From Blastococcus colisei (lineage in GTDB: Bacteria > Actinomycetota > Actinomycetes > Mycobacteriales > Geodermatophilaceae), in the NCBI RefSeq assembly GCF_006717095.1, contig NZ_VFQE01000001.1:2294001-2358000 (forward strand): a stretch of DNA of 64,000 nucleotides. The letters are read 5' to 3'. The notes under the pieces were generated by a model. That model ran no database searches, was not told the origin of the DNA, and saw nothing but the letters and a program-made list of their open reading frames with translations. The position numbers were made by a program, and so were the translations under genes. Below are positions 59,262-62,494 of this stretch, in pieces (position 1 is the stretch's first letter; each line of letters starts with the position of its first letter).

Positions 59262-59326
59262 TCCGCCGCCATCCCGGTCCCGGATCCCCGTTACCGGGCA
59301 GTTCCCCGAGGAGATGGAGACACGAC

Positions 59327-60530
59327 ATGTGTGACGTCCTTGCCCGCGTAGCGGGCGATCCGGCCATGCCGGAGTCCAATCGGCGGGCCTTCCTCAAGGT
59401 CCTGGGTGCCACGGCGGCGGCCGGTGGCATGGTCGCAGCCGGCGTGACCCCCGCCCGGGCGGCGGGGCCGGGCTCGTCCGGGCGTGGCCGCAGGGGTCGC
59501 ACCCGTCTGGTCCTGCTGGGCACCGCGGGTGGACCCGGCCTCCTGACGGGCGAGCGCTCCGGCATCTCCACCGCCATCGCGTACGGGGACCGCGTGTACG
59601 TCGTGGACCTCGGCGTGGGCTCGCTCCTCCGGCTGCGCCAGAGCAGCCTGTCGGGGCGGGTCGGAGCAGCCACGGCGCTGACCAACGTGCGGGGCGTGTT
59701 CTTCACGCACATGCACAGCGACCACCTGCTGGACTGGCCGGCGACCTATGCCACCGGACCCATCAACACCACCGGGCGCGCGGGGCAACCGATCCAAGTC
59801 TTCGGGCCGGGGAACCGCGGCTCGCTCACCAGGTTCGTAGGGAGAGTGGAGCCGGGCGTGTACAGCCCCGACGATCCATCGACCGAGCAGTTCGAGCCCA
59901 CGCCGGGAATCTCCGAGATGACCGCGCGTCTGGCGCACGCTTGGGCCGCGGACTTCAACGACCGCGCCCGCGACTCGGGCTTCCGCCCCCCCGTTCAGCG
60001 TCTTCGACGTCCGGGACATCGATCACCGCGTGGTCTGGCCGTCGATCGGTCCGGCCGGTGTGCCGCCGCGCCTGGAGGCGCCCCTCGACGTGTGGACCGA
60101 CGGCGACGTGCGCGTCACCGCCACGCTGGTCGACCACCGGCCGACCGCGCCGTCGTACGGGTTCCGCTTCGACACTCCGGACGGCTCGATCACCGTGTCC
60201 GGTGACACCACCGTCAGCCAGAACCTGATCGACCTCGCCCGGGGTACCGACTACCTCGTCCACGAGGTGATCGACCTGGCGTGGGTGGAGAGCCTCGGCT
60301 CGGTGCTGCCGAAGGAATTCTTCGAGCCGCTCAAGCAGCACCTGATCGAGTCGCACACCACCATCGAGCAGGTCGGCCGCGACGTGGCCGAGCCCGCCGG
60401 CGCGAAGAACCTGGTGCTCACCCACCTGCTCCCGGAGAACAACCCGAAGGGCCGCTGGCAGCAGGCGCGGCGGGGTTACTCCGGGCGACTCATCGTCGGG
60501 GAGGATCTGATGGAGCTCAGCGTGGGCTGA
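59327..60530 (+). pseudogene. Tat-exported metallo-beta-lactamase-fold hydrolase, frameshifted
   Basis: Two overlapping frames together give a ~400-residue protein. The first part has a twin-arginine signal (NRRAFLKVLG followed by a hydrophobic stretch and ARA) and the metal motif FFTHMHSDHLLDWP. The second part, continuous to 60530, has VSGDTTVSQNLIDLARG and LVLTHLLPENNP. They join at a run of seven C at 59986-59992: dropping one C gives DSGFRPP, then FSVFDVRDIDHRVVWPS in one frame. Either a recent one-base insertion, a sequencing error, or slippage. ATG 59327 has GGAGA upstream. It lies 65 nt after the CocE gene. Confidence 0.75.
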
Positions 60531-60587: not shown

Positions 60588-61985
60588 ATGCGCCTCCCGG
60601 ACGGACTCGTCGCGGTGGTCAAGCACGACTGCCCCACCTGCGTGCTGGTCGAGCCGGTGCTGCGGGAACTGGGTGCCGCCGTCTGGTGCCAGGACGACGC
60701 CGACTGGTTCGACGGCGACGACAGCGAGCTCGAGCTGTCCTACCGGCTGGGCATCGAGACGGTGCCCACCCTGCTGCGCGTCCGGGAGGGGCAGGAGACC
60801 GCGCGGGTCGTCGGCTGGAGCCGCGAGCAGTGGGAGCAGCTCACCGGCGTGCCCGGGCTGGGGCCGAACCTGCCCGACCACCGCCCCGGCTGCGGATCGC
60901 TGTCGGTCGACCCCTTCCGGATCGACGAGCTCGAGGCACGCTACGGCGGCAGCGGGCTGACCAGCCGCCGCGTCGAGCTGGCCGACGCCGAGGACGAGCA
61001 CGAAGCGCTGTTCGACCGCGGCTGGACCGACGGGCTCCCCGTCGTCCCGCCGACCCCTGAGAGGGTGCTCCGGATGCTGCGCGGCACCACGCGCGCCCCC
61101 GGTGACGTCGTCGCGATCGTGCCGCCCGACCTCGTGGAGTGCACCGTCGAGAAGGTGGCCGTCAACGCGGTGATGGCCGGCTGCCTGCCCGAGTACCTGC
61201 CGGTCGTGCTGGCCGCCCTGGAGGCGGCGTGCACGGAGGAGTTCGCCCTGCACGGTCTGCTGGCGACGACGTACTTCTCCGGTCCGCTCGTCGTCGTCAA
61301 CGGCCCGATCGCGAAGCGGATCGGGATGAACAGCGGAGTCAACGCGCTCGGGCAGGGCAACCGCGCCAACGCCACGATCGGCCGGGCGCTGCAGCTCGTC
61401 GTGCGGAACGTGGGGGGTGGCCGACCCGGGAAGGTCGACCGGGCGACGCTGGGCAACCCCGGAAAGATCACCTTCTGCTTCGCCGAGCGGGAGGAGGGCA
61501 GCCCGTTCGCGCCGCTGGCCGCCGACCGCGGCGTCCCCGGGGACGCGGTCACCCTCTACGCCGGCTCGGGGGTGCAGCCGGTGGTCGATCAGCTCAGCCG
61601 GAACCCGGACTCCTTGGCCCGGACGTTCGCCGCCTGTCTACGCGTCAACGCGCACCCGAAGCTGCCGATGGCCTTCGATGCGATGCTCGTCGTCTCTCCG
61701 GAGCACGGGCGGGTGTTCCGCGAGGCGGGATGGGACCGCTCCCGGCTGATCGGCGAGCTCGAGGTGCTGCTCACCCTGCCGGCCGACGAGCTCATCAGAG
61801 GCGTAGGGAGCGTGGCCGAGGGGGTGCCGGACTCGATGGCGGGGCGCGACCTGCCCAAGTTCCGGCCGGGTGGCCTGCTTCTGGCTCACGCAGGCGGCGA
61901 GGCGGGGTTGTTCAGCGCGATCGTCGGCGGTTGGGTCGGCGGGGAGACGGGCAGCGTTCCCGTGACACGAGAGGTGCGCACATGA
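60588..61985 (+). CDS. Thioredoxin-like domain fused to a large conserved domain (UGSC partner protein)
   Basis: 465 residues. The first ~90 residues are thioredoxin-like with Cys15 and Cys18 in KHDCPTCVL, and a cis-Pro-type ETVPTLLR. The remaining ~330 residues start FDRGWTDGLPVVPPTPERV and include VEKVAVNAVMAGCLPEYLPV, YFSGPLVVVNGPIAKRIGMN and GNRANATIGRALQL. This second domain is conserved but I cannot assign a reaction to it. The stop overlaps the UGSC gene by 4 nt, so the two proteins are made together and probably form a redox pair. Confidence 0.8.
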   Translation: MRLPDGLVAVVKHDCPTCVLVEPVLRELGAAVWCQDDADWFDGDDSELELSYRLGIETVPTLLRVREGQETARVVGWSREQWEQLTGVPGLGPNLPDHRPGCGSLSVDPFRIDELEARYGGSGLTSRRVELADAEDEHEALFDRGWTDGLPVVPPTPERVLRMLRGTTRAPGDVVAIVPPDLVECTVEKVAVNAVMAGCLPEYLPVVLAALEAACTEEFALHGLLATTYFSGPLVVVNGPIAKRIGMNSGVNALGQGNRANATIGRALQLVVRNVGGGRPGKVDRATLGNPGKITFCFAEREEGSPFAPLAADRGVPGDAVTLYAGSGVQPVVDQLSRNPDSLARTFAACLRVNAHPKLPMAFDAMLVVSPEHGRVFREAGWDRSRLIGELEVLLTLPADELIRGVGSVAEGVPDSMAGRDLPKFRPGGLLLAHAGGEAGLFSAIVGGWVGGETGSVPVTREVRT

Positions 61986-62494
61986 GGACCGTGCTGGACC
62001 CGACCGGGCAGCGACAGGCACCGGGCCGCGCGCTCCTGCCCCGTCCGTCCACGCTGGACGGCCGCACCGTCGGGCTGCTCGACATCAGCAAGGCCCGCGG
62101 CGACGTCGTCCTCGACCGGCTGGAGCAGCTGTTGACCGCGGACGGGGTCCATGTGCGCCGGTACCGCAAGCCGACGTTCGCCCGCACCGCCCCGGTCGAC
62201 CTGCGGCACGAGATCGCCGAGCAGTGCGAGGTGGTGATCGAGGCGCTCGCCGATTAGGGCTCGTGCACGTCGTGCAGTGTGCACGACATCGCCGATCTCG
62301 AACGCCGCGGCGTGGTGGCCCTCTTCCTCGCCAGCGAGGCCTTCGCCGAGGCCGCGCGCGTGCAGGGCGAGGCGCTCGGCTTCCCCGCCCCGTTCGTGCT
62401 GGTGCCCCACCCGGTCCAGGACCGGACCGACGACGAGCTGCGCGCCACCGCCGAGCAGGTCTACCCCGACGTGGTCGCCGCGCTGACGGCGTAG
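61982..62494 (+). CDS. UGSC-family protein, putative selenoprotein with UAG-encoded selenocysteine
   Basis: 171 codons including the stop. The frame runs from ATG 61982 through TAG 62255-62257 (codon 92) to a second TAG at 62492-62494. Around the first TAG it reads ALAD-x-GSCTSCSVHD, exactly the U/C-GSC motif that names the UGSC family, with TAG at the Sec/Cys position. Both flanking parts are in the same frame and family-like (TVGLLDISKARGDVVLDRL before; LERRGVVALFLASEAFAEAA and VLVPHPVQ after). UAG-decoding tRNA-Sec has been reported in Geodermatophilus and Blastococcus. If read as a plain stop, the product would be 91 residues without its active site. Function of the family is unknown, presumably thiol/selenol redox chemistry. 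Confidence 0.82.
62255..62286 (+). promoter_or_regulatory. Recoding codon TAG and putative bacterial SECIS hairpin
   Basis: TAG at 62255-62257 is followed after three bases by TCGTGCAC (62261-62268), a 10-base loop GTCGTGCAGT, and GTGCACGA (62279-62286): a perfect 8-bp stem. Bacterial SECIS elements lie inside the coding region just after the Sec codon, with the loop recognised by SelB. The loop opening GUC resembles the GGUC of the E. coli fdhF element. No such stem follows the terminal TAG closely. Confidence 0.7.

Follow-up and report, generated by a model that had tools for sequence, protein, structure and literature searches.

A UGSC-family gene of Blastococcus colisei in which an internal UAG is probably read as selenocysteine

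The UGSC-family gene at 61982..62494 on the forward strand of the window, a stretch of 64,000 nucleotides of Blastococcus colisei DNA, very probably encodes a selenoprotein whose residue 92, selenocysteine (Sec), is specified by UAG. Comparative sequence evidence carries this reading. A natural UAG-recoded selenoprotein had been proposed in the original prediction, and the proposal was upheld by a tRNA-Sec with a CUA anticodon, the sel genes, a TAG column shared in the family and intact orthologues. UAG is still used as a stop besides its probable role as a Sec codon, as at the end of the UGSC gene itself.

The UGSC gene and the selenocysteine machinery of its genome

The UGSC gene was delimited by profile matches and an AF2 model. 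It starts with ATG at 61982 and runs through 91 codons, an in-frame TAG at 62255..62257 (codon 92, forward strand), 78 further codons and a terminal TAG at 62492..62494 (forward strand), giving 170 residues. After the codon-92 TAG, the frame continues with GSCTSCSVHD, and the U/C-G-S-C motif is present as TAG-GSC at 62255-62266; the family column and the CUA tRNA-Sec indicate that residue 92 is the Sec (U) of this motif. The TAG at 62255-62257 was the sole internal in-frame stop, in agreement with the original prediction of a single frame interrupted only at the U of UGSC. Its family assignment was also confirmed, with Cys written in place of TAG in the searches: PF24696 matched residues 3-169 over profile positions 1-171 of 172 (E 1.9e-45; 155.5 bits, cut-off 25), and NF041046 reached 151 bits (cut-off 125). 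Standard ORF calling broke the gene into one ORF ending at 62257 and another at 62279-62494, which was the split foreseen for annotation. Further upstream, at about 59300-60530 (forward strand), a gene resembling an MBL-fold hydrolase was noticed by eye (HMHSDH motif); its frame is broken near 59990 at a C run, and the break may be real or a sequencing error.

The host genome (5.16 Mb, 4 contigs) contains one tRNA-Sec with a CUA anticodon at G000:C1:3455422-3455513, which fitted RF01852 with 66.4 bits (cut-off 47). The second RF01852 match over the cut-off (48.2 bits) was a tRNA-Ser. ARAGORN likewise gave the anticodon cta (CTA) for the tRNA-Sec, under the label tRNA-Pyl, and a G precedes the encoded CCA. 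The selA and selB genes adjoin the tRNA-Sec on the same strand, and selD lies less than 1 kb away on the other side. Their scores were 417.9 bits for selA, 280.5 bits for selB and 387.6 bits for selD, against curated cut-offs of 267.9, 242.25 and 125 bits, respectively. The four components anticipated by the original prediction were all present, in one region and above their cut-offs.

TAG was also found at other Sec sites of this genome. A second UGSC gene (C2:802702-803196), fused in frame with a domain that resembles the partner protein described below by eye, has TAG at the same column. Two FDH-like genes (G000:C1:2061803-2062534 and G000:C2:724565-725311) carry it in [IV]ENQARI-TAG-HSSTVPGLG, a position which we take to be the FDH Sec site; with TIGR01591, the best stretches of these matches reached 161 and 185 bits and so stayed under its cut-off of 666. 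Inspection by eye showed in the FDH-like genes, from 18 bases past the TAG, a stem with a GGTCT loop. The features found for a UAG-decoding Sec system were the CUA tRNA-Sec, selA, selB and selD, TAG at several Sec sites and a conserved hairpin.

In the bacterial Sec pathway, SerRS charges the tRNA, and SelA together with SelD turns Ser to Sec. In the host, SerRS would charge the CUA tRNA-Sec, SelA and SelD would convert Ser to Sec, and SelB on the putative hairpin would bring the Sec-tRNA to UAG 92 in competition with termination. A UAG without the hairpin, for example that at the end of the UGSC gene, would remain a stop. Among 49 window ORFs, which were chosen by a crude codon-position rule and include some false ones (one is antisense to the UGSC gene), 8 ended in TAG and 41 in TGA. 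The UGSC gene was absent from this set, and its own end is one further terminal TAG. This TAG at 62492-62494 was taken as a true stop from the frame and from the folding of the 51 bases past it, which was no better than that of shuffles (z +1.49).

The Sec column, the downstream hairpin and alternative readings

A putative bacterial SECIS hairpin lies at 62269..62287 (forward strand), with a stem of 62269-62276/62280-62287, a GUG loop at 62277-62279 and a closing A-U. It starts 11 bases downstream of the TAG, and its loop begins 19 bases past the TAG. At the same place, 72/72 UGSC genes with TAG had a hairpin whose loop is A-GUN-U, with compensatory changes; the stem has 8 pairs in two subgroups of these genes and 6 in a third. 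The loop was found in 0/22 UGSC genes with Cys. Covariation was scored on the 23 distinct sequences among the 72 hairpins, from which the structure had itself been derived. The score was 0.397 compared with 0.125 for shuffled alignments (0/500 reached it), and sliding the partner gave at most 0.166. In the same 23 sequences, 90.2% of cells could pair, and pairs with double changes were no more numerous than in shuffles (475/500 reached the count).

The codons of this region also showed constraint. The Ser codon in the loop was AGT in 36/36 orthologues, compared with 2 of the 226 Ser codons at its other positions (38 of 262 over all Ser codons, the 36 loop codons included). Moreover, 9 of the 11 codons past the TAG had no synonymous change, their mean entropy being 0.125 against 0.650 in 112 other codons, of which 19% showed none; the synonymous variation was lower in the 11 codons with p 1.7e-4. 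In folding tests, the 51-base MFE fold with the hairpin was not exceptional (z -1.35), while the 19-base hairpin alone gave z -3.44. When the UAG bases were omitted from folding, a competing hairpin won (z -0.45). This energetic rival, which lies nearer the TAG, was set aside since it is the stem at 62269-62287 that 72/72 genes with TAG preserve.

It is very unlikely that UAG 92 receives a canonical residue by plain amber suppression or release-factor read-through, with the hairpin acting as a read-through stimulator and not as a SelB site. The frame would look identical in that case, but the CUA tRNA-Sec occurs together with the sel genes. Furthermore, TAG stands at the Sec column of the UGSC and FDH-like genes of the host and of GRDB-type genes in three relatives of the genus, and in other actinobacteria the Sec site of 24 GRDB loci is TGA.

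Across the bacterial family, 96 UGSC matches were obtained in 55 of 112 Geodermatophilaceae genomes. The Sec column of these matches was TAG in 72, TGC in 20, TGT in 2 and Ser in 1, and was not covered in 1. The search among homologues suggested by the original prediction therefore returned TAG or Cys in 94 of the 96 matches, one divergent Ser copy and no TGA at the Sec column among the 96 matches in the 112 genomes. The count of 94 genes leaves out the match of genome G034, which is short of the column, and the divergent second UGSC copy of genome G066, which has the Ser codon TCG at the aligned column; alignment A2 took 40 of the 94. In the genera with a UCA anticodon (G066 and G072), the UGSC genes had Cys at the column, except for this second G066 copy. 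A codon switch in the UGSC gene itself was not seen, because no UGSC gene with TGA turned up among the matches in the family.

TAG was present at codon 92 in 36/36 orthologues (70-94% identity), with no other stop in the 170 codons, and also at the Sec column of 36 paralogues. The median dN/dS against the window gene was 0.24 before the TAG and 0.21 after it (35 pairs), equally low on both sides. The decay in relatives that would mark a pseudogene was accordingly absent among the orthologues. A fresh nonsense mutation, or a miscalled base in a Cys codon, would look alike in one genome, as one stop in a frame that is open everywhere else; with the same TAG conserved across the family and equal constraint on either side of it, a pseudogene or sequencing error has a negligible probability. 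Pyrrolysine at UAG 92 is equally improbable, since for all the CUA anticodon and the ARAGORN label tRNA-Pyl, the tRNA scores 66.4 bits with the model for tRNA-Sec and has selA, selB and selD close by, and the alternative residue at the column is Cys.

tRNA-Sec anticodons in the Geodermatophilaceae

A tRNA-Sec over the cut-off was found in 108 of the 112 genomes, and the exact CUA anticodon arm was present in 101 of them, covering 9 of 12 genera. The 11 genomes without this arm were the 9 of genera g5, g6 and g7 together with G097 and G098, two incomplete genomes in which no tRNA-Sec was found; 2 of the 9 genomes of g5-g7 also gave no tRNA-Sec. ARAGORN, applied to 31 tRNA-Sec loci, gave CUA for 23 and UCA for 8, of which 7 belonged to g5-g7 (L022-L027 and L030) and one was a second copy in genome G058. 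Between the UCA and the CUA arm, one flanking stem pair was changed (U-A to C-G). The class was sampled with 394 genomes, and a scan for the exact CUA tRNA-Sec pattern, which would miss variants, gave hits in 2, both of them Geodermatophilaceae and the only two members of the family in the sample.

Probably UCA was ancestral and CUA was derived once in the family, because a g7 genome was 53% identical to a G058 protein, compared with 76-100% in the ten other genomes tested (G058 included). The comparison was one of sequence identity and took in g7 alone of the three UCA genera. The published picture is extended by the CUA arm in 101 of the 112 genomes and by three genera with UCA.

Genome G058 contains two tRNA-Sec genes, one with CUA (65.3 bits; L084:7837-7928, reverse strand, contig G058:C11) and one with UCA (81.8 bits; L080:1173-1263, reverse strand, contig G058:C17). 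About 300 bases from the UCA gene lies a CMD/AhpD-like gene (L080:1579-2157, forward strand; PF02627, 28.2 bits, cut-off 23). This CMD-family gene has an in-frame TGA in CFY-TGA, where 8/8 homologues have Cys, and an A-GUU-U hairpin 17 bases after the TGA, whose folding was not exceptional (z -0.74). It is a putative UGA selenoprotein gene. The island genes on G058:C17 had a third-position GC of 0.65-0.76, below most of the contig. The neighbours of the island looked transposase-like by eye, and an Rfam ALIL pseudoknot (RF01497, 65.8 bits; L080:9125-9253, reverse strand) was noted near the transposase-like genes. Judged by its sequence, the contig belongs to the host G058: one of its proteins occurs as a single copy in G058 and has counterparts of 85-86% identity in six further genomes of the genus. 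A chimeric join at the island may be present.

It is possible, although somewhat doubtful, that G058 reads two codons as Sec, UAG by means of the CUA tRNA-Sec and UGA by means of a UCA tRNA-Sec that it acquired, presumably with one SelA/SelB; the family would have switched from UGA to UAG once, and G058 would have regained UGA by horizontal transfer. In the open-licence literature, no report of a genome carrying CUA together with UCA tRNA-Sec was found. The accessible part of PMC5330540 describes genomes with several tRNA-Sec genes and contains no mention of mixed anticodons.

The partner protein, the fold and the relation to known systems

The partner protein upstream of the UGSC gene (60588..61985, forward strand, 465 aa) was defined by ORF, profiles and model. 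Its stop overlaps the UGSC start in ATGA, and the two genes are therefore probably translated together. The partner has a thioredoxin-like N-terminal stretch with CPTC, below the Pfam cut-off, and also a conserved domain that recurs in the neighbourhood of UGSC genes. Neither Pfam nor NCBIfam had a family that matched the partner above the cut-off. Its model (pLDDT 72.6), in which the thioredoxin-like N-terminus sits in a low-confidence part, had no PDB match at E <=0.001, the best being 0.044. Among 80 loci of up to 8.6 kb from Cys relatives, 76 had a partner-like match; alignments A3 and A4 used 53 and 37 of these loci, together with the window protein. The 80 loci are uninformative on TAG or TGA because the contig scan used the Cys-codon pattern only.

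The AF2 model of the UGSC protein (mean pLDDT 92.7) has five strands and five helices, with Sec92 directly after the third strand, at a helix start. Its PDB matches were weak (best E 3.8e-5, TMq 0.31-0.54); the top one was a TIR domain, followed by the SsuE FMN reductase, flavodoxins and other Rossmann-like chains, and no thioredoxin was named among the 50 of these weak matches listed. When profiles were searched against the sequences of PDB chains, no convincing match emerged (the best E was 0.12 for UGSC and 0.038 for GRDB).

In profile-profile comparison, UGSC and GRDB (PF07355) aligned with an hhalign probability of 91%, Sec on Sec, and the control comparison of the partner with GRDB gave 0.3%, no similarity. 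Compared with GRDB, which is of the selenoprotein B / PrdB type, UGSC has the same UxxC...E..G[VI]P spacing. GRDB is far longer, 11 of 27 matches spanning the whole 347-position profile, and membership is not claimed. When 54 UGSC proteins were searched with E up to 10, PF07355 was not among the families found; HMMER filters discard most weak matches in such a search. Within the window's genus, 3 of 16 genomes had GRDB matches over the cut-off, the host genome, one of the 16, being without one. These GRDB-type genes, L245 (G028:C16), L246 (G026:C65) and L247 (G038:C26), have TAG at the Sec site (U-P-V-C). The 246 sampled genomes of the phylum contained 27 GRDB matches, with TGA at the Sec site in 24/24 examined; the other three (L259-L261) covered the N-terminal part only, and the GRDB alignment used 21 of 27 prepared sequences. 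L245 and L266 were near-identical over 48 bases at the Sec site apart from TAG versus TGA. The GRDB-type genes with TAG, where the sampled relatives have TGA, are an addition of our study. Because of the GRDB profile link and the partner-like match in 76 of 80 loci, we infer a reductase of two components, in which the UGSC protein is probably the subunit that bears selenium, Sec92/Cys95 would form the redox pair and the upstream gene would encode the second component.

UAG-encoded selenoproteins of Geodermatophilaceae were reportedly described by Mukai et al. in 2016. UAG-encoded Sec in this family, UGSC included, is already published: the accessible part of PMC5330540, citing Mukai et al. 2016, gives FDH and UGSC selenoproteins in Geodermatophilaceae with a CUA tRNA-Sec and the matching codon, and adds AhpC with TAG. 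This agrees with the UAG-reading tRNA-Sec that the original prediction named for Geodermatophilus and Blastococcus. GRDB is absent from the UAG list of FDH, UGSC and AhpC given there. As far as that text goes, the bacterial family, CUA anticodon, UGSC family and codon are the same as in our study, with no difference in principle; it covers three genomes, to which the CUA arm in 101 of 112, the SECIS covariation and the UCA-bearing genera are added here. Recoding to Sec is reported for UAG, for UAA and for ten sense codons in the part of PMC10778597 consulted, and the UGSC family is listed in that of PMC13188914.

The window protein agrees with the UGSC-containing selenoprotein family (PF24696, NF041046), as presented in the accessible sections of PMC2398784, in its full-length profile match and the Sec in UxxC. 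In both cases a partner domain is beside or fused to UGSC; those sections give a UGSC fusion with an 'Unknown_1' domain, which would be the partner domain here. The Sec codon is UAG here and UGA in the family of PMC2398784. In addition, a Trx-like fold was expected there for UGSC, whereas our model weakly matched flavodoxins, TIR and Rossmann-like chains.

The results give comparative-genomic support for a stop codon taken for Sec over most of a bacterial family with its stop role kept, and for both roles of UAG even inside one gene. Standard ORF calling breaks such UAG-Sec genes in two. Both states occur in the family: three genera carry UCA and nine carry CUA, and in G058 the two may coexist. 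The way in which a Sec codon is swapped thereby becomes testable.
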